Shown: positions 19,901 through 42,099 of the stretch, piece by piece
How positions within the stretch are numbered: the first letter of the stretch is position 1
Layout of the letters: the number at the start of each line of letters is the position of its first letter
Origin: Olsenella porci
GTDB taxonomy: Bacteria; Actinomycetota; Coriobacteriia; Coriobacteriales; Atopobiaceae
Assembly: GCF_009695875.1 (NCBI RefSeq)
Contig: NZ_VUNC01000002.1
Coordinates: forward strand, 310,001-374,000
Direction: 5' to 3'
Length of the DNA: 64,000 bases
Made by a program: the position numbers and the translations under genes
Notes under the pieces: generated by a model
What the model was told of the DNA's origin: nothing
Seen by the model: the letters and a program-made list of their open reading frames with translations, nothing else
Databases searched by the model: none

Positions 19901-21541
19901 ACTTTCATCGCGTCGAGATGCTGGACGGGATCATCCCCGCGTATGCGGGGAGCACCTGACGTTGCCCTTGGAGGCGTTCGCGCTGCCGGGATCATCCCCG
20001 CGTATGCGGGGAGCACCGATTACAAGAATCAGTCGCTGCAAAAGACCAGGGATCATCCCCGCGTATGCGGGGAGCACGGCAGGCCACGGTGGGCGGCAGG
20101 CCGTGCGCCGGGATCATCCCCGCGTATGCGGGGAGCACGGAGCCAAAAGTGCCTGCCGGTCCTCTCGCTCGGGATCATCCCCGCGTATGCGGGGAGCACA
20201 CTGGCAAGTATGCGGACGTGAGCGGGGGAACGGGATCATCCCCGCGTATGCGGGGAGCACGAGATCGTGGAGGGCGAGCGCGACGACACCCTGGGATCAT
20301 CCCCGCGTATGCGGGGAGCACTTGACGAGGTTCTCGGCAACGCTCACGAACTCGGGATCATCCCCGCGTATGCGGGGAGCACGACGTGGAATTTGCCGAA
20401 TCCGCGAATGGCCCAGGATCATCCCCGCGTATGCGGGGAGCACACTGGGGACTTGCGCATGGAGGGACGGCGGACGGGATCATCCCCGCGTATGCGGGGA
20501 GCACCTGTCTCGCCCCGCGTTCCGCGAATCGCGCCTGGGATCATCCCCGCGTATGCGGGGAGCACTTACCTGACATGCGTTAAGGCGCGTTGAAACGGGG
20601 ATCATCCCCGCGTATGCGGGGAGCACTGCCGCGAGACTCCCAGGTGCTGGGATATGTAGGGATCATCCCCGCGTATGCGGGGAGCACTGAACCTCGTCCA
20701 CGAACCTGCGGCACCATCCGGGATCATCCCCGCGTATGCGGGGAGCACCGTGCCAGCCCGCGCGCCGCCGATGAGAGTGCGGGATCATCCCCGCGTATGC
20801 GGGGAGCACCGGGCTTCGTGAGAATCACGATTCCGCTCTGCGGGATCATCCCCGCGTATGCGGGGAGCACGACGCGGAGACGGCAGCAACTAACCTTGCG
20901 CAGGGATCATCCCCGCGTATGCGGGGAGCACCCCACGTGGTTACGCCATTGGCAATGGTCGGAGGGATCATCCCCGCGTATGCGGGGAGCACCCCTTGAG
21001 GTCGAGGCACTTGCCCGTCTGGCGGGGATCATCCCCGCGTATGCGGGGAGCACCACGCATTGCAGCACCTGTGAGCAGCACGACAGGGATCATCCCCGCG
21101 TATGCGGGGAGCACCTCTACGTCAACCTCGAGATCCAGGGCGAGGAGGGATCATCCCCGCGTATGCGGGGAGCACTCAGCAGCATGGCGTCGCAGGTTGC
21201 CGTATGGGGGATCATCCCCGCGTATGCGGGGAGCACTCCCATACCTCACATGTGCCGCCGTTGCGGCTGGGATCATCCCCGCGTATGCGGGGAGCACTCG
21301 AGAGCACCCACGCGAGGGCCATGCACAACGGGATCATCCCCGCGTATGCGGGGAGCACGAGGTCGAGGAGGGCTACTACGAGTTCCGTCCGGGATCATCC
21401 CCGCGTATGCGGGGAGCACTGGTGGCCCACCTCACGCGCTTTTCGGGCGGGAGGATCATCCCCGCGTATGCGGGGAGCACCATATATACTCGCGCGCGAG
21501 GCGGCTGGTATGGGGATCATCCCCGCGTATGCGGGGAGCAC
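16938..21541 (-). CRISPR. Type I-E CRISPR array, 76 repeats and 75 spacers
   Basis: A 28-base repeat, on the transcribed (minus) strand GTGCTCCCCGC-ATAC-GCGGGGATGATCC, recurs every 61 bases. Counting by eye gives 76 repeats from 16938 to 21541, with every spacer 33 bases long. The stem CCCCGC/GCGGGG fits Cas6e recognition. Variants: the leader-distal first repeat (16938-16965) has two changes, the one at 18341 has one change, and the one at 18768 has an inserted C. The cas genes lie to the right on the minus strand and cas2 ends 69 bases from the last repeat, so the right end is leader-proximal and newest. Decay at the left end supports this direction. Confidence 0.98.
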
Positions 21542-21610: not shown

Positions 21611-21970
21611 CTAGTTTCCGAACTTTCTTGCCTGCCGATACTTCGATGCGCGGCTCCACCCCTTGGGAGGAGAGCCGAATATCGTCGCATCCTCGGTACC
21701 CCTCGGGCGTCTCACAAGCTCTATCCCCTCGCAGTCGATCGGCTCCCAGTCCGGTTGCCACACCTTGAAGGCAAGGTGCTGCTCGTTTGGATACGAGTAC
21801 GCCATCGTCGCCCGCCCGGTCTTGATGAGCGCGAGCACGCGGTCCCAGAGGGCCTCCCTCACCCTAGCCGAGACGTCACCTACGAACACCCCGGGGGATA
21901 TCTCCATCAGCCAGCGCGTCAGGTCGCCGCGCAGCCCAGTAGGGCAGGCGGTGAGCACGATGACCACCAT
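21611..21970 (-). CDS. cas2: Cas2e, adaptation protein
   Basis: 119 residues: MVVIVLTACPTGLRGDLTRW and ISPGVFVGDVSARVREALWD are diagnostic of the E. coli-type Cas2. With Cas1 it forms the integrase complex that inserts prespacers at the leader end. The C-terminal tail SRASKYRQARKFGN is basic. Starts 24 bases after cas1 stops; last cas gene before the array. Confidence 0.96.
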   Translation of the reverse strand: MVVIVLTACPTGLRGDLTRWLMEISPGVFVGDVSARVREALWDRVLALIKTGRATMAYSYPNEQHLAFKVWQPDWEPIDCEGIELVRRPRGTEDATIFGSPPKGWSRASKYRQARKFGN

Positions 21971-21994
21971 TGCCGGTCACCTCCCCTCTTCCCC

Positions 21995-22966
21995 TCAGCC
22001 CTCTCTATATGACTTACCTGCCGGAACCTCTCCAACCTTCTCGTCCCAGAGCCCGACGTGATCGATGGATGGATCCACGCACTCTGCATCCTCCGTCTCA
22101 AGGAGAAGCGACTTGATGTCACCTACCATCCTCGGCATGATCTCGAGGCTGTAGACCGCGTCCCTCATCTTTCTCCTGGTCTCCGCACCAACGTCCACGG
22201 GGAACTCCGCCACGGTCTCGAATGCCACCGGGATGGAGATCTCAGCCTTGTACAGGTCGGCAACGTCATACACAAAGGAGCGCTCGTGGCCCGTGTGCAC
22301 GAACCCGAGACCCGGGGAGCATCCCATCGCAACAATTGCCGCATGCGCGAGGCCGTACATACAGGCATGCGCCGCAGAAAGAGCCTGGTTGATCTCGGTC
22401 CCCTCGTCAAAGTCGTCCGGGTTGTACGTCCTCTTGTCCCAGAAGACGCCCGTCTTCTCCGAGCACTCCTTGTAAACCTTGCGGATGCGAGCCCCCTCGC
22501 GGCCACGCAGTTGCTGCATGGTGAGGCCGCTCACGTCCTCGCCGGGGAACCTCATCGCATACATCCTGCGCGCCACGGCGAGCCTCGACCTGGTGTTGGA
22601 GACAAGCTTGGCCTGTCGCTGCAGCAGCGCGCTTGAGTGGGTGAGCGGACTGCCGAACGCGTACATGCGCACGCCCCTCTCCCCCACCCAGATCACGGAG
22701 GCACCGCTCTCGCCTATTACGGTCATGGCATCATGGGTGACCGTCGCCCCAGGTCCGAGCATGAGCACGCTCAGCCTTGCGGACGGGACGTAAATTGTTC
22801 CCTCCTCGTCCGTGACCGTGATTGCGTTGTCGGAGCGGTTGACCTTGCAATGCTCAAAGTACAGGAACGATATCCTGTCCTCCACCCGCACCAGCTCCGA
22901 AATGTCAGGGGGAGGGGCTCCCCTCCGACTCGATGCGCCCCTAGCAGACCCATTTGAATCGGACAT
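21995..22966 (-). CDS. cas1: Cas1e integrase
   Basis: 323 residues. The Cas1 metal site is present: Glu in QQLRGREGARIRKVY, His in GFVHTGHERSFVYDVADLYK and the Asp pair in that stretch. ISFLYFEHCKVNRSDNAITV is the type I-E N-terminal domain. A Gly/Ser/Ala/Arg-rich N-terminal extension (about 20 residues) precedes it. Catalyses spacer integration with Cas2. Confidence 0.96.
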   Translation of the reverse strand: MSDSNGSARGASSRRGAPPPDISELVRVEDRISFLYFEHCKVNRSDNAITVTDEEGTIYVPSARLSVLMLGPGATVTHDAMTVIGESGASVIWVGERGVRMYAFGSPLTHSSALLQRQAKLVSNTRSRLAVARRMYAMRFPGEDVSGLTMQQLRGREGARIRKVYKECSEKTGVFWDKRTYNPDDFDEGTEINQALSAAHACMYGLAHAAIVAMGCSPGLGFVHTGHERSFVYDVADLYKAEISIPVAFETVAEFPVDVGAETRRKMRDAVYSLEIMPRMVGDIKSLLLETEDAECVDPSIDHVGLWDEKVGEVPAGKSYREG

Positions 22967-23006
22967 GGTTGCCCCTCTCCTTTGAAGAGACTTCTGTTGT
23001 TCTGCC

Positions 23007-23696
23007 CTAGCGGGTGGGCATGATGGTCAGGAGGCCGCAGCCGAACCCCTTCGCCCTCCCGATTCCGAACCCCAGGGCATGCCTGAAGGCGTCGGCGTCC
23101 TCAACCCGCAGAACCCCGTCGTAGACCGCCGTGCAGATCGTTACGTCACTTCCCTCTCGCCTCGAGCGCTCCGTGCGCCGTTGCGAGACGCTGACTTGGA
23201 CGAATCCATCCTTGTCCACGACCAGGGAGAAGCCGTGGCTTCCCGACCTGTCCTCTAGCCACTTGAGCTGTTGCTCGACGGTGACGTGACCCTGCACCTT
23301 TCCGATTACCTTTGGGTTCTTTGACCTCCTGCCAAGGTCAGCCTTCACCTTTCGGGCGGGGTTCGCCTTGAGGCGGAACCGCCAGACCTGCCCGTCACCA
23401 ACCCGATCGAGGAGAGGACCGTAGTCCTTCGTCTCCCAGCCAGGGTTTGTCGGCCATCCGCACTGCTCGACGATGTGGGAGAAGTCCGGTCTCTCCGGGC
23501 TCACGACGTACAGCCATACGCCCTCCTCGCTCCTCGGGGACTGGTCGATGCGCCAGAGGATCCGCCCCTCCTCGCACTCCCTTGTGGCACAAGGAGGAAA
23601 CGACGCCTCGACGGCTGCGTGCATGCGGTATGGGGAGCTCACGAGCCTGAGCGCGCCACGCCTCTCCACGTTAAGTGGAAGTCGAGAGATATACAC
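23007..23696 (-). CDS. cas6e: Cas6e (CasE) pre-crRNA endoribonuclease
   Basis: 229 residues. MYISRLPLN start, the probable catalytic His in SPYRMHAAVEASF, and the C-terminal glycine-rich loop FGIGRAKGFGCGLLTI are typical of Cas6e. It cuts at the base of each repeat hairpin and stays bound to the crRNA 3' handle in Cascade. Sits between cas5 and cas1 with a 16-base gap to cas5. Confidence 0.95.
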   Translation of the reverse strand: MYISRLPLNVERRGALRLVSSPYRMHAAVEASFPPCATRECEEGRILWRIDQSPRSEEGVWLYVVSPERPDFSHIVEQCGWPTNPGWETKDYGPLLDRVGDGQVWRFRLKANPARKVKADLGRRSKNPKVIGKVQGHVTVEQQLKWLEDRSGSHGFSLVVDKDGFVQVSVSQRRTERSRREGSDVTICTAVYDGVLRVEDADAFRHALGFGIGRAKGFGCGLLTIMPTR

Positions 23697-23712
23697 TCCG
23701 TCCTCCTCTCCG

Positions 23713-24444
23713 TTAGAAGAATCCCATGGGATCGTGCCCGCCGGGAAGGATGGCTCCGCTTGCCTGCGGGGAGGCGGCTATCGCAGGTTCCGCACCCGGC
23801 AGCGAGTCGATGGGCACCCTGAACCTAACGATGCGCCTGCTCGCATACCTGCGGCACGCGTACCCAAAGCTGACGGGGAGATCCGGCTGCTCGAACCCAG
23901 CCTCCCCCTCCCCCGCATCGCAGAGGGCCTCCAGCTCGACGCGTCCCGAGCGCTCCCGATACCAGTCCGCCGCAATCCAGGGGTGGCGGCGGAGCGCGTC
24001 TCGCACGCCCGAGTAGTCCTCTGACAGCCCGAGGCAGACCGGCTCGTCGGGAGGGCACGAGCGCCTCCCCAGGAACAGGGGCCACACCGGGGCACTGATA
24101 GCTCGCTCCAACTCCTCCAGCAGGGCCTCGTCACCACCGAGGGCCACAAGGAACTTTGCATCGGAGAGGTAATAGCGGTACGAGAGGGGCATCGCCTTTC
24201 CGCCGTCTGAGGGACGCTCCGTCTGGAAGTCGCACAAGACGCTCCCGGACTGGTCGACGCGGACACCGAACTCGAGGGCTACCAGGTCGCTCAAGTCGTC
24301 CTCGCGGGAGCGGCCGAGTGCCGATGCGAGCATGCCAACCACTCCGCTCTTGGTTGGCTCCTGGCGGGTGTCCCTGCGAACGAAGCGGGAGGAGTCGCCC
24401 CACGACTGGAGCGGACCCGAGAACCTCAGGAGCAGGACGCTCAT
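23713..24444 (-). CDS. cas5e: Cas5e (CasD), Cascade 5'-handle subunit
   Basis: 243 residues starting MSVLLLRFSGPLQSWGDSSR followed by TRQEPTKSGVVGMLASALG, the canonical Cas5e opening. RRIVRFRVPIDSLPG appears near the C-terminus. Overlaps cas7 by four bases (ATGA), a sign of coupled translation. Binds the 5' handle of the crRNA and caps the Cas7 backbone. Confidence 0.96.
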   Translation of the reverse strand: MSVLLLRFSGPLQSWGDSSRFVRRDTRQEPTKSGVVGMLASALGRSREDDLSDLVALEFGVRVDQSGSVLCDFQTERPSDGGKAMPLSYRYYLSDAKFLVALGGDEALLEELERAISAPVWPLFLGRRSCPPDEPVCLGLSEDYSGVRDALRRHPWIAADWYRERSGRVELEALCDAGEGEAGFEQPDLPVSFGYACRRYASRRIVRFRVPIDSLPGAEPAIAASPQASGAILPGGHDPMGFF

Positions 24445-25580
24445 GCCTCCTCACCCTCGGAGAGGAGACCGAGAACCGCTTCCTTGACCGCATCGTAGAG
24501 CTGGGGACAGTCAACCTGCTGCCCAAACTCCTCGAGCGCCTCGTCACCGCCATCGACGGCGCACCACCATGCCTTTGCGGGACGCTGCCCGTACATGTCC
24601 GCCATCCTGTTGAGCTGCTTAGCAAGCAGACCCTCCGCCTGGGACGAGATGGACTCCCCCTCCTTCGGAGCGACGGGGCTCTCGAAGGCACCGACGCCAT
24701 TGATGGGCTGCTCCTCCCTCAGAGCGACGAGCACTGCGGACGGAAGCGTCCTGTTCGCGAAGGTGTTCTGCTTCCCCGTGGGCATGGACTCCACGAACGC
24801 ACGGACGAACGCACGTGCACCCTCCGCCGTGGCAGCATCGTCGCCAAGCTGCTCGCGCAGTGACGCCACGTTGACCGTCGCGTAGCGATACAGCGTGGAC
24901 GAGTTGTAACCCAGCGTGTCCAGCATCGCGGCTCCGGCATTGTCAGACGAGACGCAGTCGTCCACCGCCGTGAAGTAGTCGTACTCCTGCGACACCTTGT
25001 TCACCGAGATTGCATGAGCCACCTGGGCGGATGCGTCCGTGTTGAGGTCGGGGGCGTCGGCGAGCATGCGACCGAAGAGGGCGATGTCGAGGGCCTGCTG
25101 CCCGTGGAAGGCGGAGGAGACCTTCTTCTTGAGGTCCTTCGACGGCTTCGAGAGGTCTTCCCCAGCTTCATGGGCGTCGATAGCGATGCGAGCGAGCTTG
25201 TCTATCTCTCGCCTCCCGATGAAGATGAGGTACTGCGAGACTTGCGAGCCCTTGTCGGAACCTGCGCGCTTCGACTCCCCCACCTTCACGCCCGTGGTGG
25301 AAAGGACGCCCATCGCCAGCCTCTCGGCAGAGTCGGAGAGGTCGGGGCGCTGTGCCTTGATGCTCTCCCCAATCAGACCCACCGCGTGCTTAGTCCTGTA
25401 CCCGAGGTTCTCCGCATCCACGAAGTGGGAGAAGTTCTCCCTCATCGCGTGCTTCCACGCCTGGCTCGACACCCGAGCGCGCTGGTACCCGCCATAGACC
25501 GCCGTCTTCGGAGATCCAGTATCGTCCCTGTTGATGTTGCTGGGCGGGACAACCTGCAAAACGTTGATGTCAAGATACAT
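24441..25580 (-). CDS. cas7e: Cas7e (CasC), Cascade backbone subunit
   Basis: 379 residues from the ATG at 25580 (MYLDINVLQVVPPSNINRDD) with GGAGGTAATC upstream. SPKTAVYGGYQRARVSSQAW is the signature of type I-E Cas7. Six copies line the crRNA in Cascade. Length is in line with E. coli CasC (363 residues). Lies 17 bases after cse2 and overlaps cas5. Confidence 0.96.
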   Translation of the reverse strand: MYLDINVLQVVPPSNINRDDTGSPKTAVYGGYQRARVSSQAWKHAMRENFSHFVDAENLGYRTKHAVGLIGESIKAQRPDLSDSAERLAMGVLSTTGVKVGESKRAGSDKGSQVSQYLIFIGRREIDKLARIAIDAHEAGEDLSKPSKDLKKKVSSAFHGQQALDIALFGRMLADAPDLNTDASAQVAHAISVNKVSQEYDYFTAVDDCVSSDNAGAAMLDTLGYNSSTLYRYATVNVASLREQLGDDAATAEGARAFVRAFVESMPTGKQNTFANRTLPSAVLVALREEQPINGVGAFESPVAPKEGESISSQAEGLLAKQLNRMADMYGQRPAKAWWCAVDGGDEALEEFGQQVDCPQLYDAVKEAVLGLLSEGEEA

Positions 25581-25597
25581 GATTACCTCCACTCTCG

Positions 25598-26245
25598 TTA
25601 CTGGCGGACGCTTGCGGCCCCATCCTCCGAGGTCGCTGACTTGACGGGTGCGTAGTAGTCCCTCGCCCAGTTGAGGAAGACCCCCTCGCGAGCAGACTCG
25701 AACTGCAGGAGGAACAGGTCCCGGGCGAGCGCACCGTAGTCGAGCTGGACGTCCTTCGCCCTCATCTGCCTCACGAGCGCACGCACGCAGGTCTCCACGC
25801 CACGGAAGTCCCCCGACGCGGCTTCGACGCTCGCCAGGCGCCTCCTGACCCCCGGAGCCCCATCCTCATTTTGATTGCCAAGCGTGATGAGGCGGCATGC
25901 CCTGCCAAAGCGCCCCGAGTGCTCCCCTCCCGTTTTAGGGAAGACCGCCATCGGATGGTCCTTGGACTGCTGGTGAATCGAATAGAGCTTGAGGGAGGCC
26001 CTAATGCTGAGAAGGGCCTTGTCCTCCACCGACCTCCCCATCCCAAGGTCGGGGAGGTCGGAGAACACCTCCTCACCGACGACCATCCAAGATCCCCCGC
26101 CGGGGGCGTCCAACTTCCTCAGGCGGGCCATCGTTGCCCTCGCGGGTGCCAACCCCTGGAGATAGGCGCTCTGGAGCCTCCCGACCTTAGCGTTGACGCA
26201 CCGGCCAACCTCTCTGGAGGCAACGCTGATGCTTTGCATCCCCAT
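25598..26245 (-). CDS. cse2: Cse2 (CasB), Cascade small subunit
   Basis: 215 residues from the ATG at 26245, which overlaps the cse1 stop (TGATG); a GTG immediately before is possible. LAPARATMARLRKLDAPGGG, DKALLSIRASLKLYSIHQQS and GRACRLITLGN match the Cse2 family. A dimer of this protein stabilises the R-loop non-target strand. Confidence 0.92.
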   Translation of the reverse strand: MGMQSISVASREVGRCVNAKVGRLQSAYLQGLAPARATMARLRKLDAPGGGSWMVVGEEVFSDLPDLGMGRSVEDKALLSIRASLKLYSIHQQSKDHPMAVFPKTGGEHSGRFGRACRLITLGNQNEDGAPGVRRRLASVEAASGDFRGVETCVRALVRQMRAKDVQLDYGALARDLFLLQFESAREGVFLNWARDYYAPVKSATSEDGAASVRQ

Positions 26246-28005
26246 CACATCCCCTCACTCAAAGTCGCTGACCCAACCGTCTTGGAGGAGTCCTTCTCCT
26301 TGTACAGGGGGCTCAGGGCCTTGTTAAGGGACGCCCTGAAGATCGCGTCTGCCTTGCCCACGGTCATCCCCCTGTCCGACTTCTTGTCCTCGGGCTTCTC
26401 GTAGCGCTCGGCGAAGAGGGACGGCGCGCATTCGCGGAGGTATTCACCCTCGAGCGCGAGCAGCGTACTTCGGATCTCCGCACGCCATTCGATGCAGTAC
26501 TCGTCGATGACGGTGTCGCCGTCGCCCGGGAAGTGCGCAATCCTGTCCCTGCAGAGGTGGTCGATCTCACCGAAGGCCTGCGCCCGAACGTAGGACGACT
26601 TGACCCTAGCCCTGTCCTTCGCGCTCTTGTCTCCCGAGGCCCTCTGAACGTTTCGAACGAACCTGACGAGCAGCTCCACTGCCTCGTCGGCCTGCGCTAT
26701 CACCTTCAAGGAACCCGAGCACGCTCGCGAATCATGGCACAGGAGGGCACTGCTGACGTCCAGGATGTCATCGACCCCGTCCTCGAACACGCTCGACTGC
26801 GTTCCGTAGCTCATCCCCTGGGCGTGGATGGCAACGTAGGGGAGGGTCTCCCTCGGCAGGATTTCCTCCTCCTGAAGAAGCTCCGCCCAACGCACCACGC
26901 CCGGGCGACAATCCTCGCTCCCCTCCTCCTTGGAAACGACTGCGGAGAGGCCACGCCAAATTGCACGCTCGGAATCGTGAGCCCTCGGCATTAGAGGGGC
27001 GGAGGGAAGGCCAAGCTTCTTCTGCTGGGCCTCGCTCTTCCTCCAGGCGGTCATCGGTTCGGCATCGGCGCCATTGACGATTGAGGGGATGTCCCCGTAG
27101 CAGCTGACCACCCCAACCACGCGCTGCCCGGTCTCGTCAAAGACGAGCCTCATCCTTCTGCTCTGCCACGTATACGCACTCACGGGGTCATTGGGATTGC
27201 CAGTTGTCGCGGGAACGAGGTCCGGCGTAGTCTCGTCCGCCTCCCACGAGGGAATGCCTGCGGCATTCCCACAGATGAGGTGACCGTTCTTCCGCTTCTC
27301 GTCGAAGAGTACCCAGTTGAGCATCAGGGTCTGGAAGAGGTTCTCCCCTTCCAGGAAAACCCCTCCCTCGGCACCCAACAGCCCCGTTCCGACCGAACCC
27401 TTGGGCGCATACACCTTCCCGCTCTTGACGTGGCTGTTACCCACCACCGGTGTCTTGATTCCAGCAGGAGCGTAACTCTGCTGGAAAATGAGCCAGCGGA
27501 CTCCCTCTGCAAGCGAGAGGCTAGAAATCGTCCCTCTCGCCCTCATCGAGAAAAGGAACTTCTCCGGCTTCGGGACGTCCGCCACCAGCTCGTCAACACC
27601 GTCCGGTTCCTTCCCCACATACTCAAGATCAGGAACCTGGTAGAAGGGGTGCGAGGGATCGTCCAGGTAGAAGCGATCACTGAAGTAATCCAGGTACCTC
27701 CTGATGTCATCCATGTCGAACTTGCCCGCAATCCAGAGACTGTGCCAGAGATCGAGAACATCCTTCTTGCCCAGCACGCCCCCATCCGCGGCCGAAGGCG
27801 AGTTCGCTCGATACAGAATCGCCAGCAGCAGCCGCACTATGGGGAGCTCCTGCATCGGGACATCACCCTGGATTCTTCGAATGCTGGCAGCCCTGTCGAA
27901 AACATCGACCATCGAGAGCTCGCCCCTGCTCCCATCTAGGTAGATGACTGGTATCCATGGGTCAGTTGCGATGCTGAACGCCACCCTCGCGTCCGTCTCG
28001 TCCAT
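26245..28005 (-). CDS. cse1: Cse1 (CasA/Cas8e), Cascade large subunit
   Basis: 586 residues from the ATG at 28005, which follows a very strong GGGAGGGAGGAAGA site; earlier in-frame codons run through the repeat-like element and lack a site. FSIATDPWIPVIYLDGSRGE, VDVFDRAASIRRIQGDVPMQ, and the central LIFQQSYAPAG region are typical. It recognises the PAM and recruits Cas3. Somewhat longer than the E. coli protein (502). First gene of the cse1-cas2 unit, separated from cas3 by 157 bases. Confidence 0.95.
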   Translation of the reverse strand: MDETDARVAFSIATDPWIPVIYLDGSRGELSMVDVFDRAASIRRIQGDVPMQELPIVRLLLAILYRANSPSAADGGVLGKKDVLDLWHSLWIAGKFDMDDIRRYLDYFSDRFYLDDPSHPFYQVPDLEYVGKEPDGVDELVADVPKPEKFLFSMRARGTISSLSLAEGVRWLIFQQSYAPAGIKTPVVGNSHVKSGKVYAPKGSVGTGLLGAEGGVFLEGENLFQTLMLNWVLFDEKRKNGHLICGNAAGIPSWEADETTPDLVPATTGNPNDPVSAYTWQSRRMRLVFDETGQRVVGVVSCYGDIPSIVNGADAEPMTAWRKSEAQQKKLGLPSAPLMPRAHDSERAIWRGLSAVVSKEEGSEDCRPGVVRWAELLQEEEILPRETLPYVAIHAQGMSYGTQSSVFEDGVDDILDVSSALLCHDSRACSGSLKVIAQADEAVELLVRFVRNVQRASGDKSAKDRARVKSSYVRAQAFGEIDHLCRDRIAHFPGDGDTVIDEYCIEWRAEIRSTLLALEGEYLRECAPSLFAERYEKPEDKKSDRGMTVGKADAIFRASLNKALSPLYKEKDSSKTVGSATLSEGM

Positions 28006-28162
28006 TCTTCCTCCCTCCCGATTAACGTTCGACGTAACCAACCCCCGCAAATGCGGGGAACACACGAACCCGTTGACCACCTATGGGTCACCCCCCGGAA
28101 TCAATTCCTCAGAACCAGGAACGGGGGAATACCAACCTCCTTTCTCTTGGTTTGATTCTATT
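28006..28162 (-). promoter_or_regulatory. Regulatory gap between cas3 and cse1
   Basis: 157 noncoding bases inside an otherwise tightly packed cluster. They hold, in transcription order, AAAGGAGG with no start codon after it, an AT-rich patch, a near-palindrome GGAAT-TG-ATTCC (28108-28097), the repeat-like stem, and the cse1 ribosome site. Likely holds a separate promoter or post-transcriptional control for the Cascade/adaptation genes; I could not fix a convincing -35/-10 pair. Confidence 0.5.
28036..28063 (-). repeat. Isolated CRISPR-repeat-like element upstream of cse1
   Basis: On the minus strand GTGTTCCCCGC-ATTT-GCGGGGGTTGGTT matches 19 of 28 positions of the array repeat and keeps the full CCCCGC/GCGGGG stem and the GTG start. 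It lies 31 bases before the cse1 start codon and has no second repeat beside it. It is in the same orientation as the array repeats. See finding on cas autoregulation. Confidence 0.85.
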
Positions 28163-28191
28163 TCAATTAGGTTGTGAAAGGGTTGGTATTC
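28127..28191. repeat. 11-bp inverted repeat at the cas3 3' end
   Basis: GAATACCAACC at 28127-28137 and GGTTGGTATTC at 28181-28191 are exact reverse complements, 43 bases apart, straddling the cas3 stop codon (28163-28165). The same core GGTTGGT also occurs in the tail of the repeat-like element at 28036-28063. Could be an RNA stem separating cas3 from cse1 messages, or an operator pair. Confidence 0.7.
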
Positions 28192-31100
28192 TACGAACGG
28201 TCGATAGCCCATCGCGACGGGTGTATCGAAGCTCATTTCCAAGAACGGTCGCCTCGAACGACCCATCATCCATCTCCCTCATGGGAAGAAGGAGCCTCCC
28301 AGCAAGCCACGGGGAGTCCTGCCAGGCGTAAACGTATCTCCCGCACTTCTCCTCGAGTTCCCCGATGCACTTGTCCTCGAGGGAGACAGGACATACCGAG
28401 AGGGGAAGCCTGACGGCGCACTGGGCAATGAGTCGCGCCAATGCCGGGCGAGGCTCCTCGTACGTTGGGATCTCCTCCCCAGCTTCTACCCCCGAATACG
28501 ACACCCAGGGCAGGAGCGAGATTCCCCCTCCGTCGCACTCCCTCACGAGAAGGACCTCGATAGACTCCTGCGTGTCTCGAACGGCACGCTGGCCACGATC
28601 CTCGTCCCCTCTCACCTGGTTGTGGGAAGCAAGGGATGACAGACGAGACTGATCGCGAACGAGCTCCTTAACGTCAGAGAGGAGGTATGTCTTCGCCCTA
28701 TTCGTCTTTTCCACCTCCTTGGACTCCCTCGCCGCACAGCCCTTCTGGTACTCCTCACGCCAACGCTCGGGGATATATGCCGAGATATTGCGAGAGTAGG
28801 CGGTCCTCACGAGGCGGGGGATATCGTTGGGAAGGGAGACTTCCATCCTCGAACCGGCATCGACGAGTCCGAGAACTGCGAGCGATTCCAGAGTCGAAGC
28901 TTTCTGGTATACAAACGTGATGCTCTTGGAGACGCTGGGGACGCCATCCTCCCACTCCTCGATGCCACGAATGAAGCACTCTGCCGAGCGGAGCTTCTCG
29001 GGACGGCTCGACTCCCCCTCCCCCCTTTGGTGCCTGTGCATCCTTCCCAACCTCTGCAACAGCAGGTCAATGGGGGCGACATCGGTCACCAGCACGTCGA
29101 AATCGATGTCGAGCGACTGTTCGAGCACCTGCGTGCCGACGACGATGGACAGCACGGGTCGTCTGCCGTTCTCCCGAGTCGCATCTCGCCCAAGCCGAGA
29201 CCTCAGCTCCTTTTCGTTCTCCATCCTGTCCAGGTCCATGAACCTGGAGTGGTCGAGCGAGACGACGTCCCTCCCGAACGAGTTTGAAAGCGCCTTCGCA
29301 ACCTCCTGCGCCCTCGAGACCGTATCGCAGATGACCCCAGCGCAACCGCCTCCGGAGAGCCTCTCGGAGAGAAGCGACGCCAGCGTGTCCAGTTCGTCGT
29401 CGATGAGCGAGAGCGCAACGTCCACGCAACGACCGGACGCCTCGGTCTCAAGCGTCTTCGACGCTGTGCCATCGGTATAGGTGATCAGGGGATAGGCATC
29501 CAATCTCGCCTCGGGAATGAGCGACGCAACACCTTGCTGCGTCGGAGGCGGAGCGCCAGTGGACTTCTTCCTAGACCCAGACAGGTACGCCGGGACGAAC
29601 CTTCTTTTCGACGAATCGGAAGCGTTTGGGTTTGTAAGGCTCTCCGACGCCTTCCAACCGCACAGGTACCAGTCGGTCATCTGCCTGCGAAGGTCACTCG
29701 GGAGCGTCGCGGAGAGGAGAATGACGGGCGTATGCCAGTAGCCGAGCCACTGGAGGACCCTGAAGAGGTACTGACGCATGTAGAGGTCGTAGGCATGGCA
29801 CTCGTCGATGATCACGACCTTGCCCGCGACGGAAAGCTGCCTGAGTGGCAGGTGTCTCATGTCAAGCGCCGCCATCAGGACCTGGTCAACGGTGCAGACC
29901 ACGAAGTTCGAGAGCATACCTTTCTTGCGGCCGAACATCCAGTCTGACGCGACGACGTGCTCTTGCATGGAGAGGCCAGTGGCCTTCCCCAACCGCTCGG
30001 CAGACGCCACGGAATTGAAGCCATCCTCCCCGCTCGCATGGACGATGCCTTGGAACTTCTCGTTGAGCTGAGCCTTTCCGTGAGCGAGGTAGATGCTCTT
30101 CTCGGGGATCCCTGGGTCTTGCGGAAGACGCTCGAGCCAGTACTCGACCCTCGCGAACATCGCATCCGTCGTCGCCATGGTGGGAAGCGCAATGCAGACG
30201 CCCGCTGCGCCGGTACGGACGGCAAGGACCTCCGCGGCAGCAAGGGCACCCTCCGTCTTCCCCTCTCCCATCGGAGCTTCGATGATAATCAGGCCGGGCT
30301 CCTTCGTCTCCAACGCGATATGCATTGCAGCACTCTGAATTGGACGGGGAGATGCGCCGGCCGGAAGCGAGAAGCGCTTGGAGAAGAACTCGTCGAATGG
30401 CTTCACCTTCGGCATCGGCTCCCTCCAGGCGGGGGTGAGGGAGACGCGATGCCAGCCGGTGGACTCGCGGTCATCAAAGTCGATGCGCCTCTCCCCCGCA
30501 TCCATGAGCTGGACGAGGGGATAGAAGTCCTCGTCGCTCGCAATCCAGTCGCACATGGTGACGAGGCCCGTAACCAGGCACGCCGTCGCCGCAGGAAGCG
30601 GGACGGAGGATAGCTTCTGCAGATCCGAGTCGGTTAGCCCCGAGATTGCGAGACAGAAACGAATCAGCTCCTCTTGAACCTTGGGCCAGTCGTCCACGCA
30701 ATCGTCCGCGCTACCGATTGCAACCATATTGCTGGGGTCCATGTCAAAGCCGACGATACCCTGGAAGTTCCCGTGGTGGGCACCAACGACATCGGCATAG
30801 GAGAGAGCAACGCTCCTCTCCCATCCATAGTCTTGGAGTGCCTTGGTGAGGAGGTACTCCCCCGCGACGGGGTGCGTCGGCTTGCTTCTGCTCCCAAGAT
30901 CATGCCGCACGGGCAGACCTGCGTGCTCCACCATCCAGACAAGACCCCCGCCGCTGGCGCCGAAGTGAGGACGAATGCCCTTCGCCTGGAAGATGGGGGT
31001 CGCCTTGCCGATATCATGGGCGCTTCCAAGGAAGATGCAGACGCGTCTCGCAAGACCCTGGTCCCCATCCAGGGGCCGAGAAATTGCCTTCCTCAGGCAC

Positions 31101-31267
31101 TCGGAAAGCCACTCGTCCCAGAGGTGCGAGATGACAGAGGCAGAGTCGGCCATGTGGACGTAGAGCGGAAGCCACCTCTCACCAATCCCGTAGTCAGACT
31201 TCCCCCAAATCGATCGGGCCTGTTTTGAGAGGCCCTTGACTTTCTCTACTGGCGACACCTTGCCCAC
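28163..31267 (-). CDS. cas3: Cas3 helicase-nuclease
   Basis: 1034 residues with an HD nuclease domain then an SF2 helicase. HD motif AHDIGKATP (His84-Asp85), THPVAGEYLL and GAHHGNFQG supply the nuclease metals. Helicase: Walker A APMGEGKTEG (about 331-340), DECHAY (motif II), LLSATLP (motif III) and LLQRLGRMHRH (motif VI). It degrades target DNA after Cascade forms an R-loop. Full length, no frameshift. Encoded first in the cluster, in its own unit upstream of the 157-base gap. Confidence 0.96.
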   Translation of the reverse strand: MGKVSPVEKVKGLSKQARSIWGKSDYGIGERWLPLYVHMADSASVISHLWDEWLSECLRKAISRPLDGDQGLARRVCIFLGSAHDIGKATPIFQAKGIRPHFGASGGGLVWMVEHAGLPVRHDLGSRSKPTHPVAGEYLLTKALQDYGWERSVALSYADVVGAHHGNFQGIVGFDMDPSNMVAIGSADDCVDDWPKVQEELIRFCLAISGLTDSDLQKLSSVPLPAATACLVTGLVTMCDWIASDEDFYPLVQLMDAGERRIDFDDRESTGWHRVSLTPAWREPMPKVKPFDEFFSKRFSLPAGASPRPIQSAAMHIALETKEPGLIIIEAPMGEGKTEGALAAAEVLAVRTGAAGVCIALPTMATTDAMFARVEYWLERLPQDPGIPEKSIYLAHGKAQLNEKFQGIVHASGEDGFNSVASAERLGKATGLSMQEHVVASDWMFGRKKGMLSNFVVCTVDQVLMAALDMRHLPLRQLSVAGKVVIIDECHAYDLYMRQYLFRVLQWLGYWHTPVILLSATLPSDLRRQMTDWYLCGWKASESLTNPNASDSSKRRFVPAYLSGSRKKSTGAPPPTQQGVASLIPEARLDAYPLITYTDGTASKTLETEASGRCVDVALSLIDDELDTLASLLSERLSGGGCAGVICDTVSRAQEVAKALSNSFGRDVVSLDHSRFMDLDRMENEKELRSRLGRDATRENGRRPVLSIVVGTQVLEQSLDIDFDVLVTDVAPIDLLLQRLGRMHRHQRGEGESSRPEKLRSAECFIRGIEEWEDGVPSVSKSITFVYQKASTLESLAVLGLVDAGSRMEVSLPNDIPRLVRTAYSRNISAYIPERWREEYQKGCAARESKEVEKTNRAKTYLLSDVKELVRDQSRLSSLASHNQVRGDEDRGQRAVRDTQESIEVLLVRECDGGGISLLPWVSYSGVEAGEEIPTYEEPRPALARLIAQCAVRLPLSVCPVSLEDKCIGELEEKCGRYVYAWQDSPWLAGRLLLPMREMDDGSFEATVLGNELRYTRRDGLSTVRRIPTLSQPN

Positions 31268-31622
31268 CCCTTTGGGACGAGAGACTGCGACGAAGCGCTT
31301 AATACTCCCGTTCAGGGTCGCTCATACCCCGGACAAAAATGGTCCCTGCTCGACGCCCGGCAGAAACCATTCTCCCATTGGTGTTGTTTTGTGTCTCAAG
31401 TACCTAGATGTCATCAGCTGGAAGCTGCCCGCTCGAGCTTCCAGAAAGAGATGGCATTGCAAGGGAGGTGAAGGGTGACCGTTCGCCAGCGGAAAGACAC
31501 CCGAAGGGCTAACGTTGACCAAACCCTTCCCACACAAGAGCAAGCCCGGAGGCAAGGTCGAACCCCTTGCCCCCGGGCACCTCTCGTGCGATTGGTTGTC
31601 GAGTCGCAAACTACGCCAGCTC
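31268..31622. other. Intergenic region upstream of cas3
   Basis: 355 bases. Expected to hold the cas3 promoter on the minus strand; a CTTGAGACACAAAACAAC stretch near 31392-31409 is the AT-richest part, but no clear -10 follows at the right distance. The right part holds a strong hairpin listed separately. No gene supported. Confidence 0.4.
31544..31578 (-). terminator. Strong hairpin, probable terminator of dehydrogenase gene
   Basis: GCCCGGAGGCAAGG (31544-31557) pairs with CCTTGCCCCCGGGC (31565-31578) at 13 of 14 positions around a 7-base loop. It lies 45 bases past the stop of the D-2-hydroxyacid dehydrogenase gene. The following tract CTTGCTCTTGTG is only weakly U-rich, so intrinsic termination is plausible but not certain. 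Confidence 0.5.
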
Positions 31623-32633
31623 TCACGCCCCCATGCCGACGGGAACGTCGTTTACAAGCTTGAACAGCTGGTCCCTCTCGCCATTGATAAAGTGGACGAT
31701 GTTCTGGCACGGAATCACCTGCACGTCGCGCATCGACGCGGTGGAGTAAAACGCCGAGTGAGGGGTGATGATGACGTTGTCCCTCCCAACCAGCGGGTGA
31801 TTCGCCAGGTCCGGCGTCTCGTCGTAGAGGACGTCGGCGCCAAATGCCCGGATGGTGCCGTCGTCGAGTGCCTTGACGAGTGCTCCCTCGTCCACCGCAA
31901 GCCCCCTTCCGAGGTTGATGAGGATGGGTGACCTCCGCATCTTCGAGAACGCTTCGGCGTTGAAGAAGAACCGGTTGCTGTCCGTCAGGCACATGTGGCT
32001 CACGATGATGTCGGCACTCGCGAACAGCTCGTCCCGGTCGGTCACGCGCTCCACGCCCAGGCGCTCGAACTCCTCGTCCGCGACGTAGGGGTCGTATGCG
32101 ATGACCCTCTTCACCAGGCCGGACGCCTTCCTCGCGGTGCACTTCCCGATCTTGCCAAAGCCGACGATTCCCAGCGTCTGGTCCTGCATCCTGGGATACT
32201 CAGGGGCAGCGGCAAAGTCCCACACGTGCTCGTCCTCGATCTGCCTCGTGTAGAACCTGAGGTGCTTGTTGAGTGCGAACATGTAGGCGATGGCGCTCTC
32301 CGAGACGTCCCAGGTGCAGTACTCCCCCACCGGGCACACCCCCACCCCGTGTCGGGTCGCCGCCTCCAGGTCAACGTTGTCGTAGCCAGTCGCGTTGATC
32401 GCGACGACCTTGAGGTTTGGCGCGTGCGCAAACGCCTCCTCGTCCATCGGGACAAACGCCGTAAGAAGGGCATCGGCATCGGAGAGAAGCTCCAGGAACT
32501 CCCCCCTCTCGCTGTCATCATATGGGTGGACGACAACCTTAAGGTCATCTCCCAAACCCATCCTCAGTGTCTCGACCTCGAGGGAGTGGTCGGGCATCAT
32601 GCTCTCCGGATAGTCGCAGATGAGTACCTTCAT
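31623..32633 (-). CDS. D-isomer-specific 2-hydroxyacid dehydrogenase (C-terminal-binding-protein-like)
   Basis: 336 residues. Rossmann motif GIVGFGKIGKCTA, catalytic Arg in INLGRGLAVDEGAL, Glu in DVLYDETPDL, and His in ITPHSAFYS. The AINATGYDNVDLEAA and CTWDVSESAIAYM stretches place it with CtBP-like family members. NAD-dependent reduction of a 2-keto acid; substrate not predictable. Last gene of the leftward arginine-type cluster, so it may handle a keto acid from amino acid breakdown. Confidence 0.9.
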   Translation of the reverse strand: MKVLICDYPESMMPDHSLEVETLRMGLGDDLKVVVHPYDDSERGEFLELLSDADALLTAFVPMDEEAFAHAPNLKVVAINATGYDNVDLEAATRHGVGVCPVGEYCTWDVSESAIAYMFALNKHLRFYTRQIEDEHVWDFAAAPEYPRMQDQTLGIVGFGKIGKCTARKASGLVKRVIAYDPYVADEEFERLGVERVTDRDELFASADIIVSHMCLTDSNRFFFNAEAFSKMRRSPILINLGRGLAVDEGALVKALDDGTIRAFGADVLYDETPDLANHPLVGRDNVIITPHSAFYSTASMRDVQVIPCQNIVHFINGERDQLFKLVNDVPVGMGA

Positions 32634-32739
32634 GGTGCTATTGCTCCCCTCTTGCAGAAGAGGGGCGGCGGCCCAGCAGAGTGCCGTCGCCCCAGATAGC
32701 CACTTTCGCGTTTCGTTGCAGTTCCCGCGTCGCGCCTTC

Positions 32740-33600
32740 TTACGGGCGCTCGATGGGCTGCGTCAGGCAGTGCGGGCCACCGCCGGCGTGCAGGATCTGG
32801 TCAAAGGGCACGTCGATGACCTCGAGACCCAGGGCACGCATCTTGTCGTTGATGTGCTTGTTCTTCTCGATGGCGACTACCTTGCCGTCACCGATGCACT
32901 CCACGTTGCAGCCGTGCTTGTACATGTCCTCGGAGGCGACGGGGATGATCTCGAAGTTGCGGCGCTTGAGCATCTGGATGAAGTTGTACGGGAGCTCGTC
33001 CAGACAGGCGAGCGCGACCTGCGGGGCGACGATGTTGAAGACCATGTCCAGGTGCAGGTTGTAGGGCGGGCAGGGGACGCCCACGACGGTGTAGCCGTAC
33101 TTCTGGAGCTGGTCCCTGAGGTTTGCGACGCCCGCCTCGTCCGTGCGGTCGACCATGCCAAACGCGAGCGTGTGCTCGTCGACCATCCAGAAGTCGCCGC
33201 CCTCAAAACAGCCGGCGTTGCAACGCGCGATGATGGGGACGCCCATCTCCTTGAGCTTCTGCTCGTACGCCACGGCCTCCACCTGGCGGACGGGATGGCG
33301 GAAGTGGCCCATGATGGCACCCTCGCGGACCATCGCGCCATAGTCGCGGGCAAAGGTCATGACCTGGAACTCGGGCTTTGCCTCGACCTCAACGACCTCG
33401 ATCCCGTTGTCGCGGTACGCCTGGACGAGCGCCTCCCACTCGCGGACCATGACGTCGTTCTTCTCGGTGTCGCCCTTGCGCATCCACTCCGAGGTGATCA
33501 CGTTGATGCCGTTGAAGGTGTAGTACTTGGGCGAGCAGACCATGACCTTCTTGAGGACGTTCGTCGCGTTGCTGACGTAGACCTTCTCATCGGTAGACAT
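32740..33600 (-). CDS. Arginine deiminase/DDAH-fold amidinohydrolase
   Basis: 286 residues from the ATG at 33600 (MSTDEKVYVSNATNVLKKVM); an upstream in-frame start at 33639 has no better site. FARDYGAMVREG, CFEGGDFWMVDE, NLHLDMVFN and the C-terminal AGGGPHCLTQPI with the nucleophilic Cys match dimethylarginine dimethylaminohydrolase and related guanidino-group enzymes. It would release citrulline from arginine or a methylated arginine. Neighbouring ornithine carbamoyltransferase and permease fit a citrulline-handling pathway. Exact substrate not certain. Confidence 0.82.
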   Translation of the reverse strand: MSTDEKVYVSNATNVLKKVMVCSPKYYTFNGINVITSEWMRKGDTEKNDVMVREWEALVQAYRDNGIEVVEVEAKPEFQVMTFARDYGAMVREGAIMGHFRHPVRQVEAVAYEQKLKEMGVPIIARCNAGCFEGGDFWMVDEHTLAFGMVDRTDEAGVANLRDQLQKYGYTVVGVPCPPYNLHLDMVFNIVAPQVALACLDELPYNFIQMLKRRNFEIIPVASEDMYKHGCNVECIGDGKVVAIEKNKHINDKMRALGLEVIDVPFDQILHAGGGPHCLTQPIERP

Positions 33601-33712
33601 AGGTGGCACATCCCTTCGGTTGGTGTTCTCTTGCCGCACGGGGCCGTCCCCATGCGATTGGGTGGATTTTTGCTAGTTGACTTGCGTATGAGTTCTTTAC
33701 TAATCCCGCTGG

Positions 33713-35248
33713 TTACCCCACGAAGACCCCGACGACCAGGAAGACGCAGCAGGTCACGAAGAAGATCCCGAGGATGGGGAGGATCCTCCTGACCCAGTCC
33801 GCATAGCTCATGTGGGCGGCGGACGTGCAGGTCATCACGACGACGGAGGCCGGGGTCACCATCTTCGCCATGCCGAGCGCCATGCACATGATGGTCACCA
33901 TGAGGCTGGGGTTGACGCCAGCGAACCTTGCGAGCGACGCCATGATCGCCATCGTCGCCGCGGCCATGCCCGTAGAGCTGGGGATAAAGCAGGCGAGCAC
34001 GAAGTAGAAGGCGAGGGAGACGATCACGAAGACCACGGGCGGCAGGGCGGCGAGGGTCGTCTCCCCCAGGTGGAGGATCGTTGGCGTGATGCCACCCGCA
34101 TCCATGACCACCTGGATGCCGCGCGCCATGGGGACCACGAACGCGGTGGGAACAAGGCCTGCCGCACCCTTCATGACGATGTCGACGATTCGGTCGATGT
34201 CATATCCCATCACGAAGCCGATGGCGATGGTGGCGACGAGGACGAGCATGCTGAGCTCGTTGAAGTACCAGCTGCCAAACGGCGTGATGTCCTGCCCCAG
34301 CACCATCCCGAGGACGGGAACGCCCGCGAGGAATCCGAGGAAGTCAGAGAAGAACGTCCAGCTCTCGCTGATCGAGGTCCAGGGGATGAACGCAAGAACC
34401 ATGATGGCGAACACCGCGATGAACAGGCCGAGCGAGACCTTCTGGCAGTGGTCAAGCTCCCCCGCGCCCTGGGCATCCCCGCCGAACTCGCGGATGTCCT
34501 CGTCCCTCCGGAAGTACTGGACGGAGAGCTCGGGGTTGCGCTGTACCCTATCCGCATAGCGGCAGATGATGAGGCTTGCCAGCGCAACCAGGGTGACGAG
34601 CAGCAGCGCCCTGAGCAAAAGCCCATCTCCGCTGGAGATTCCCGCAATGCCCGAGGCCACGCCCACGGAGAAGGGGTTCACCGTGGATGCCAGGCAGCCG
34701 ACCTGCGTGCCGATGACCACGATCATGATGGCGACCACCGTGTCGAGCCCCAGCGAGAGGATGGCGGGGACGAACATCATGAAGTAGACGATGCCCTCCT
34801 CGTAGGCACCTTCGACCGTCCCAAAGAACGCCATGACCGCAACCAGGATGGTGATGAGGAGATGGGCGTTGGAGGCGTTCTTGGCGGTTATCCCCTTGAG
34901 GGCGACGCTGATCGCCCCCGTGTTGTCCATCATCTCGAGGAAGCTGCCAAAGAACATGATCGTGAGCGAGATGGAGATTGCCGCGCTCGTGGTCTCTGAC
35001 CCCACCATGCCGATGATCGGCGCCAGAAAGACGTCCCAGATGCCCTGGGGGTTCGCCTCTACCACATGGTAGGTTCCCGCAATCGCCTGGCCGGCGTCGT
35101 CCAGGTCGTAGGCGCCACCGGGAACGAACCAGGTGAGAACCGCGATGGCGCAGATCACCACGAAGAGAATCACATAGGTGTTGGGGCTCTTTCGCCTCTG
35201 TCCCGACTTTGAGACGGAGCCCGCATCCTTGGTTGCCTCAGAAGCCAT
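33713..35248 (-). CDS. YfcC-family membrane permease (arginine/ornithine or dicarboxylate type)
   Basis: 511 residues with about 12 hydrophobic segments after a polar N-terminus. YVILFVVICAIAVLTWFVPG, GSETTSAAISISLTIMFFGS, FFGTVEGAYEEGIVYFMMFV and FIPSSTGMAAATMAIMASLA are typical of the YfcC/DcuC superfamily. Members often sit in arginine catabolic clusters as presumed arginine/ornithine or citrulline exchangers; here flanked by an OTC and an arginine-deiminase-fold enzyme. Transported substrate is inference. Confidence 0.85.
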   Translation of the reverse strand: MASEATKDAGSVSKSGQRRKSPNTYVILFVVICAIAVLTWFVPGGAYDLDDAGQAIAGTYHVVEANPQGIWDVFLAPIIGMVGSETTSAAISISLTIMFFGSFLEMMDNTGAISVALKGITAKNASNAHLLITILVAVMAFFGTVEGAYEEGIVYFMMFVPAILSLGLDTVVAIMIVVIGTQVGCLASTVNPFSVGVASGIAGISSGDGLLLRALLLVTLVALASLIICRYADRVQRNPELSVQYFRRDEDIREFGGDAQGAGELDHCQKVSLGLFIAVFAIMVLAFIPWTSISESWTFFSDFLGFLAGVPVLGMVLGQDITPFGSWYFNELSMLVLVATIAIGFVMGYDIDRIVDIVMKGAAGLVPTAFVVPMARGIQVVMDAGGITPTILHLGETTLAALPPVVFVIVSLAFYFVLACFIPSSTGMAAATMAIMASLARFAGVNPSLMVTIMCMALGMAKMVTPASVVVMTCTSAAHMSYADWVRRILPILGIFFVTCCVFLVVGVFVG

Positions 35249-38287: not shown

Positions 38288-38298
38288 AGGTCGGAACC

Positions 38299-38610
38299 AT
38301 GGATGTGAGAGAAGCCGTGAAAGCTGCCGCGCACTACGTGGCAGAGCTCGAGGGCCCCACTGGGGGCGAGCGTGAGGACGCTCCCGACGAGCAGATTCTG
38401 CGTGACATCCGATTCGCCGTGGAAGGCACCCGCTACGACGAGCAGAACAAGCGTTGGAGCATCGACGTCGGGTTTGCCCGTCCCTGGGACCAGGCGACGT
38501 CCTCCCCTCTTGCTGGCCTCGCTGGCTCGATGAAGGACAACCGCGCCTTCAAGACCGTGACCATCGATGACGCAACGGGCAAGGTCCTCGACTATGGCGC
38601 GAGCAGGTAG
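38299..38610 (+). CDS. Unknown protein paired with PIN gene, copy A
   Basis: 103 residues, MDVREAVKAAAHYVAELEGP ... RDIRFAVEGTRYDEQNKRWS then IDVGFARPWDQATSSPLAGL and KTVTIDDATGKVLDYGAS. The fold resembles small alpha+beta proteins that record 'new value' strands, seen elsewhere as short genes before PIN proteins; I know no named family. Frame is intact, but its ribosome site is weakened to GAAGG compared with AAGGAGG in copy B. Probably an antitoxin-like or immunity partner; inference from pairing only. Confidence 0.6.
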   Translation: MDVREAVKAAAHYVAELEGPTGGEREDAPDEQILRDIRFAVEGTRYDEQNKRWSIDVGFARPWDQATSSPLAGLAGSMKDNRAFKTVTIDDATGKVLDYGASR

Positions 38611-38614
38611 GAGA

Positions 38615-39076
38615 ATGCCCACGCGCGTTCTCCACGGTGCGGACATACTGGTGATCCTGACATACGGCGCCGTAGACCGCAGCTCCTTGGGCTCAAGACG
38701 CAGGGTGCGCGAATACATGCCCAAAGACTTTGACTTAGTCACCGATTTGGTTGGACGCTTCAAGCAAGCCATCGTCACTCCCAACGTGGTAACAGAGTGT
38801 TCCGACCTCTTCCACGATGCGGACGATGGACGCGAGAAGGCATGGCTCAAGGCGTTCCCGTAGTCAGACGAGGTGGTTCGCGTGGAGGAGTACGTCCCCA
38901 GCCGGAAAGCAGCGGACCTCGCCCAGTACGAATACCTTGGGGTTGCGGACTGTTCGCTACTATCGCTGGTGGACGACAATACTGCACTTCTCACGACAGA
39001 CGCCAAGCTCTACTACGAGGCAGCCCGGATTAACCCACACTGCATGAACTTCAATCACTACAGGAATTTCAACTAG
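38615..39076 (+). pseudogene. PIN-domain protein copy A, active-site mutant with premature stop
   Basis: Aligned with copy B at 41450. Where B reads LLDAN (Asp8), A reads LHGAD, losing the first catalytic acid. At codon 83 CAG has become TAG (38861-38863), cutting the protein at 82 residues; the downstream frame continues SDEVVRVEEYVPSRKAADLA to a natural end YYEAARINPHCMNFNHYRNF. The original C-terminus is thus preserved here but not in copy B. Dead gene. Confidence 0.85.
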
Positions 39077-39237
39077 CGGGACAAGACATCTTCATTGCTC
39101 CGCACGAGCGAGAATAACTCTCGGCTCCCTCAAGCTCATGTCGCTAACCCATTCAGGGTCGAATACAGACGACGCTTCGCTCCTGCCCAGCGACGCCACC
39201 GCCCAAGGCCGAGCTCCGGGCCACCCCCTCCCCCACC

Positions 39238-41122: not shown

Positions 41123-41133
41123 AGGTCGGAACC

Positions 41134-41445
41134 ATGGATGTGAGAGAAGCCGTGAGAACTGCCGCGCACTACGTGGCAGAGCTCGAGGGCCTCACTGGGA
41201 GCGAGCGCGAGGACACGCCAGAAGAGCAGATTCTGCGTGACATCCGATTCGCCGTGGAAGGCACCCGCTTCGACGAGCAGAACAAGCGTTGGAGCATCGA
41301 CGTCGGGTTTGCCCGCCCCTGGGACCAGGCGACGTCCTCCCCTCTTGCGGGCCTCGCTGGCTCGATGAAGGACAACCGCACCTTCAAGACCGTGACCATC
41401 GATGACGCAACGGGCAAGGTCCTCGACTATGGCGCGAGCAGGTAG
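41134..41445 (+). CDS. Unknown protein paired with PIN gene, copy B
   Basis: 103 residues, MDVREAVRTAAHYVAELEGL ... EEQILRDIRFAVEGTRFDEQ, differing from copy A at only a few positions. AAGGAGG at 41119-41125 gives strong initiation. The stop lies four bases before the PIN gene start, so the two are co-translated. No DNA-binding motif is visible. Antitoxin or chaperone-like role is inferred from the two-gene layout. Confidence 0.7.
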   Translation: MDVREAVRTAAHYVAELEGLTGSEREDTPEEQILRDIRFAVEGTRFDEQNKRWSIDVGFARPWDQATSSPLAGLAGSMKDNRTFKTVTIDDATGKVLDYGASR

Positions 41446-41881: not shown

Positions 41882-42099
41882 ACTTCAATCACTACAGGAA
41901 TTTCAACTAGCGGGACAAGACATCTTGATGGTCCTACCATGCGCTAACTGCTGGCTTTCGCTATTCTCACATTTCGTGGCTCCAATTTGCGCCCCCTACA
42001 TATTAGGGTTACTTTCTAGTGTCGCAAATCACTGTGGAGCGAACATCAGCGGGATTCCCTGGATGGTTGCTTCGGGTTGCTTCGGACTCACTCTAAATA

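Follow-up and report, generated by a model that had tools for sequence, protein, structure and literature searches.

The window, the whole 64,000-nt stretch of DNA that was analyzed, most probably (about 90%) encodes a CreR-type cas-regulating RNA between cas3 and cse1, with which guide-loaded Cascade would block the promoter of the Cascade operon. The stem before cse1 is, judged from its sequence, the second, degenerate repeat of a mini-CRISPR with a single spacer, which lies in what is presumably the leader of the Cascade mRNA. Sequence-level support came from the anatomy of the unit, its conservation, guide-target co-variation, the PAM, the seed, the position and uniqueness of the target, and mismatches at flipped-out positions. 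A complete type I-E locus occupies the minus strand of the window, cas genes first and then the array, and the features of interest are as follows.

16998-21541, minus strand: main CRISPR array, 73 repeats counted, period 61, with a 29-nt repeat and 32-nt spacers
21611-26248, minus strand: cse2, cas7, cas5, cas6e, cas1 and cas2
26245-28005, minus strand: cse1 (casA), assigned by a TIGR02547 match and its translation, ATG start at 28005
28006-28034, minus strand: remainder of the cse1 leader and ribosome-binding site, no promoter match above control
28035-28063, minus strand: psiR2, degenerate second repeat, stem at 28043-28058 (CCCCGC-ATTT-GCGGGG)
28064-28083, minus strand: guide of 20 nt, TAGGTGGTCAACGGGTTCGT, 16/20 match to the cse1 promoter
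28084-28112, minus strand: psiR1, strongly degenerate first repeat, 14/29 against the array repeat, handle 5/8
28155-28160, minus strand: -10-like hexamer TAGAAT of the putative cse1 promoter
28163-31267, minus strand: cas3, the upstream gene, its stop codon adjoining the PAM
28165-28167, plus strand: PAM AAT
28168-28187, plus strand: protospacer TAGGTTGTGAAAGGGTTGGT in the cse1 promoter, mismatched to the guide at positions 6, 9, 12 and 18

Read in the cas direction, the 157-base gap between cas3 and cse1 (28006-28162) contains the hexamer TAGAAT (28160-28155), psiR1 with its handle (28091-28084), the guide (28083-28064), psiR2 (28063-28035) and the ribosome-binding site, and psiR2 ends 29 nt before the cse1 ATG. 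Two repeat-like sequences flanking one guide thus stand inside the cas locus, adjacent to the genes of a compatible effector (cse1, cse2, cas7, cas5 and cas6e); both are features of CreRs. psiR2, GTGTTCCCCGCATTTGCGGGGGTTGGTTA on the minus strand, was identical to the array repeat GTGCTCCCCGCATACGCGGGGATGATCCC at 19/29 positions, with 18/21 in the Cas6e-binding stem portion and only 1/8 in the 3' handle. Pattern searches served for the genome-wide checks, and the pattern TTCCCCGCANNNGCGGGG occurred once in the 2.36-Mb genome. psiR2 is expected to be the Cas6e site that gives the 3' end of the guide RNA. psiR1 retains the 8-nt 5' handle GTGACCCA (28084-28091; array counterpart ATGATCCC) at a spacing of exactly 20 nt from psiR2, so that the handle is supplied by psiR1 and the 3' stem by psiR2, as a unit with one guide would require. 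The CreA repeats are split in the same way, psiR1 keeping the Cas5 handle and psiR2 losing its handle (PMC9458426). An Rfam search gave no match at gathering thresholds, and the leader folded no better than shuffled sequence.

The sequence-only reading had described a solitary repeat-like stem at 28006-28063 and regarded the sequence after it (CGTCGAACGTTAATC...) as spacer-like. The stem was borne out, but it is not solitary: the more degenerate psiR1 with its crRNA handle precedes it. The sequence after the stem is leader and ribosome-binding site, and the guide is the 20 nt before the stem. Those coordinates therefore miss psiR1, the guide and the target. When the bases after the stem were compared with the promoter, a check put forward in that reading, the best matches were 8-10/17, the same as the control, and exceeded the control in 0/19 loci; a guide downstream of the stem was rejected.

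Two further observations concern the neighbourhood of the locus. Direct repeats that are nearly identical (96-99%) and lie about 2.83 kb from each other were present at 38288-38587 / 41123-41422 and 39019-39095 / 41853-41929, perhaps reflecting a recent duplication. The ORFs at 31414-32142 (minus strand) and 32620-33792 (plus strand), beside cas3, had no Pfam match and may not be genes; both overlap a dehydrogenase-like ORF at 31623-32633 (minus strand).

The guide matched the putative cse1 promoter at 16/20 positions, a level reached by 2/20,000 dinucleotide shuffles and by 0/20,000 if an AA PAM was required. Its mismatches were the positions flipped out in Cascade (6, 12 and 18) plus position 9, and it paired at 16/17 non-flipped positions. 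Across the genome, only the protospacer fitted the pattern with no mismatch. Limited complementarity of a guide to its own cas promoter, beside a PAM, is another feature of CreRs, and the promoter itself is proposed from the -10-like hexamer. A sigma-70 consensus scan of this putative promoter found no full consensus. An 11-bp inverted repeat (28181-28191 / 28127-28137; GGTTGGTATTC / GAATACCAACC) flanks it.

We retrieved cse1 and its upstream DNA from relatives and obtained a set of 19 Coriobacteriales loci, including the window's own, from 12 genera and three families; one relative is recorded as an uncultured Olsenella, a genus of Atopobiaceae within this order. The same stem was located before cse1 in the window and 18 relatives, with compensatory changes, so that psiR2 can be regarded as far from a chance match. 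Loss of the stem in related cas loci, which the sequence-only reading had named as an outcome that would refute it, was not what these relatives displayed. The psiR2 stem was paired in 99% of cells across the 19 loci, and at two pairs both partners had changed (A-U/G-C and C-G/U-A); pairing was lost when the partner was slid as a control. In some genomes psiR2 has CCCCAC/GTGGGG and the array CCCCGC/GCGGGG (L011 versus its own array in L027), indicating a stem that drifted from the array yet stayed paired.

The stem is preceded by another clear repeat in L005, where the handle is canonical, and in L006; the stem is thereby identified as the second of two repeats. A handle-like octamer was found at matching spacing in 19/19 loci; the distance from handle to psiR2 was 20 or 21 nt in 17 loci and 32 or 33 nt in the other two. 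In an alignment of 14 loci other than the window's own, the psiR1 sequence was variable, but 80% of cells were paired and 18 cells carried double changes; the window's own psiR1 does not show this stem. No stem was found in L015-L019 and L045-L049, whose cas3 and cse1 genes adjoin or overlap; L040 has a cas3-cse1 gap, yet no mini-CRISPR was visible in it. In L039, psiR1 is well kept in stem and handle and the psiR2 stem sequence is changed, the reverse of the usual pattern. There psiR2 is without CCCC, and the guide read by hand, AAGATGTTATTGCGC, matches AAC|AAGATTTTATTCC (PAM AAC) with mismatches at 6, 12 and from 14 onward. Within a single genus, represented by L037, L038 and L041, the guides measure 21, 32 and 33 nt, and a switch of about 12 nt in guide length seems to occur among its members.

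Each guide was compared with the region upstream of psiR1 in its own genome and in the other genomes of the 19 loci. Within its own genome, each guide matched the opposite strand a short way upstream of a -10-like hexamer; between genomes there was no match. Guide and promoter sequences differ among species, yet they pair within each, and swapping genomes abolished the match. The within-genome scores summed to 243, versus a best value of 212 among 100,000 genome permutations, and comparison of the guides with the sense strand, as a control, gave background level. A PAM was present in 19/19 loci (AAC in 15, AAT in 4) although the search did not impose one. In 79% of loci, versus 22% for background, a hexamer resembling a -10 element lay a short way downstream of the target. 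L010 also matched, its target overlapping the stretch first assigned to psiR1. A first search with free 18-nt windows gave a much weaker signal because it ignored the register fixed by the handle.

Counted over the 19 loci, matches at guide positions 1-20 were 19, 19, 15, 19, 19, 5, 19, 19, 14, 17, 16, 4, 16, 13, 14, 9, 12, 3, 7 and 6. Positions 1, 2, 4, 5, 7 and 8 thus matched in 19/19 loci, and positions 6, 12 and 18 in 12/57 cases (p 0.54 against the 25% expected for unrelated bases). Among positions 1-15 other than 6 and 12, 219/247 matched (Fisher p 2e-16 for 6 and 12 versus the rest). Several other loci paired over scarcely more than the first 11 positions. In type I-E Cascade, the seed comprises positions 1-5 and 7-8, and every sixth base is flipped out (PMC5904413). 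We read the mismatch periodicity as a likely trace that Cascade binding has left over evolution.

Operators typically show inverted similarity on the two sides of a promoter, and the likeness of guide and target might instead be the dyad operator of a protein repressor, the stem being an unrelated or relic repeat. We consider this very improbable, as complementarity is kept though the sequence differs between genomes, mismatches recur every 6 nt, AAC or AAT flanks the target, and the spacing is fixed relative to the hairpin. To our knowledge, no protein operator would yield such a 6-nt mismatch pattern. The degenerate repeats and incomplete pairing could also be read as a relic: a self-targeting spacer acquired in the distant past and now decaying without function. 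Such a relic would be expected to lose seed positions as well; stem and seed pairing are upheld by co-variation throughout the 12 genera and their three families with the flipped positions free, and a relic is scarcely credible.

The PAMs can be set beside the main array, in which the 3'-most base of the repeat is C in 64/73 and T in 7/73 copies. New spacers in E. coli carry along the last PAM base. If acquisition is E. coli-like, C or T at the repeat end fits the PAMs AAC and AAT. Protospacers of the main array were sought in phages for an independent PAM, and this gave only weak matches, which were spread over the repeats.

Retention of the stem with compensatory changes, in the presumed leader, would also suit a Cas6e processing site and nothing more, at which Cas6e cuts the leader and tunes mRNA stability with no guide used. 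This alternative, which the sequence-only reading had offered beside a CreR-like autoregulator, leaves the guide-promoter match, the PAM, the 6-nt mismatch periodicity and the fixed spacing unexplained, and we consider it highly improbable as a complete account. Cas6e cutting of the cas leader at psiR2 is probably also true, since it would be the processing step of the guide; cutting at the window psiR1 is uncertain because of its strong degeneracy (14/29). The proposal of a CreR-like autoregulator is strongly supported by the guide-promoter match, PAM and co-variation, with the correction that a two-repeat unit replaces the lone stem and its guide precedes the stem.

An unbiased scan covered 81 cse1-upstream regions from Actinomycetota. 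All CCC/GGG hairpins with a 6-bp stem were taken on both strands with guide lengths of 8 to 49, and a match was defined as an AA PAM plus at least 9/10 seed matches elsewhere in the region. Matches were confined to lengths 20/21 and 32/33, except for one 1-nt shift of a length-20 match; bar this shift, the scan ruled out the other guide lengths from 8 to 49. The swapped-genome control gave matches in 22/620 pairs, scattered across 19 lengths. A handle-like octamer precedes the scan matches, though the handle was not used in the scan. L039 was missed because its psiR2 is without CCCC. Five more distant Actinomycetota loci (L057, L065, L070, L074 and L090) have mini-CRISPRs upstream of cse1 that run antisense to cas. 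Their guides, 20 or 32/33 nt long, match DNA between the unit and cse1, and the PAM is AAA, AAT or AAG.

The predominant 20/21-nt guides and the minority of 32/33 nt differ by 12 nt, the footprint of two Cas7 subunits, and array spacers are 32 nt. Under the rule L = 6N-4, given for type I-F1, 20 nt corresponds to four Cas7 and 32 to six (PMC7296934). The two guide lengths would fit a Cascade with two fewer Cas7 subunits. We judge the odds about even that Coriobacteriales and some other Actinomycetota have a natural, conserved short-guide type I-E Cascade, with a dedicated 20/21-nt autorepressor guide (6N-4 with N=4; array 32) and four rather than six Cas7 subunits. On this view, the Coriobacteriales guide would be excised from the mRNA being repressed, coupling the supply of guide and Cascade. 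In type I-B, short guides bring about repression and no cleavage (PMC10551041, PMC10989794), and type I-E Cascade with a guide shortened by 6 or 12 nt reportedly retains slow Cas3 cleavage (PMC7296934). Given this slow cleavage and the near-complete self-match of the window guide (16/17 non-flipped positions), protection of the chromosome needs explaining, and guide shortening, perhaps together with the position-9 mismatch, may provide it.

In the mechanism that we propose, a cas promoter between cas3 and cse1 would be transcribed, and Cas6e would cut the leader at psiR1 and psiR2, freeing a crRNA-like guide composed of the handle, 20 nt and the stem. Cascade carrying this guide would bind back to its own promoter at roughly -20 to -39 (numbered relative to the assumed -10), beside the AAT PAM, and would sterically block RNA polymerase. 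Incomplete pairing and the shortened guide would keep Cas3 from destroying the chromosome. Repressor and Cascade would be co-produced, because the repressed mRNA would itself yield the guide from its leader. Repression would be lifted when Cascade is scarce, loaded with other crRNAs or inhibited by an anti-CRISPR; CreRs are described in review as responding to competing crRNAs and anti-CRISPRs (PMC12737573).

Guide and promoter binding by Cascade could be real with steady autorepression not the main outcome, the unit acting mainly as a Cascade decoy or as a block of another regulator. The sign of regulation is not readable from sequence, and repeat-like decoy RNAs exist (PMC10651486). On the other side, the target is kept beside a -10-like hexamer, Cascade at promoters silences genes in E. 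coli (PMC12235044), and the CreRs covered in reviews repress (PMC13131331, PMC12737573). We consider such a decoy or blocking role as the main outcome very improbable. Autorepression by the guide-loaded Cascade would have wider meaning. Nearly all type I-E loci found in Coriobacteriales with a cas3-cse1 gap carry the element, which suggests that RNA-guided cas autorepression is common in one Actinomycetota order. Guide and promoter co-evolve, and the free positions 6, 12 and 18 record in evolutionary terms how DNA is read by Cascade. With two guide lengths permitted, a structural question becomes testable: whether cells have Cascades of two sizes, one serving killing and the other regulation, and whether shortening spares the self-match from cutting. 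A hairpin and a self-match at fixed spacing provide a search recipe for such regulators, and PAMs become readable from genome sequence alone.

Among known systems, CreA of CreTA (PMC9458426) likewise has two degenerate repeats, the handle in psiR1 and not psiR2, and a partial promoter match. In the window, however, the matched promoter is that of cse1; the target lies directly before the cse1 leader rather than at a toxin promoter, and inspection of the cas3-cse1 gap revealed no toxin gene. The window system is type I-E with hairpin repeats, whereas CreA belongs to haloarchaeal I-B without hairpins (PMC9458426). Engineered short-spacer type I repression (PMC10989794, PMC10551041) resembles the element in that short guides repress without cleavage, but those systems are engineered and type I-B, and the window element is natural, conserved and type I-E. 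The Racr phage RNA anti-CRISPRs (PMC10651486) are also repeat-like RNA units engaging Cas proteins; the window element is not phage-borne and has two repeats and a guide matching its own promoter. Its second repeat and matching guide also separate it from solitary repeats and Racr-type decoys. The closest likeness is to CreR (Liu et al. 2023, 10.1016/j.chom.2023.08.005), summarized in reviews as a mini-CRISPR beside cas genes with limited complementarity to the cas promoter, in types I-B, I-E and V-A (PMC13131331, PMC12737573), and the window element shares both traits. Type I-E CreRs have already been reported (PMC13131331), and the window element would be a further CreR. It differs from CreRs as portrayed in these reviews in two ways: it is placed downstream of its target, in what is presumably the leader of the operon to be repressed, and its guide is 20 nt, 12 shorter than the array spacers. 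The short guide and the position within the transcript may set the window element apart from known CreRs.
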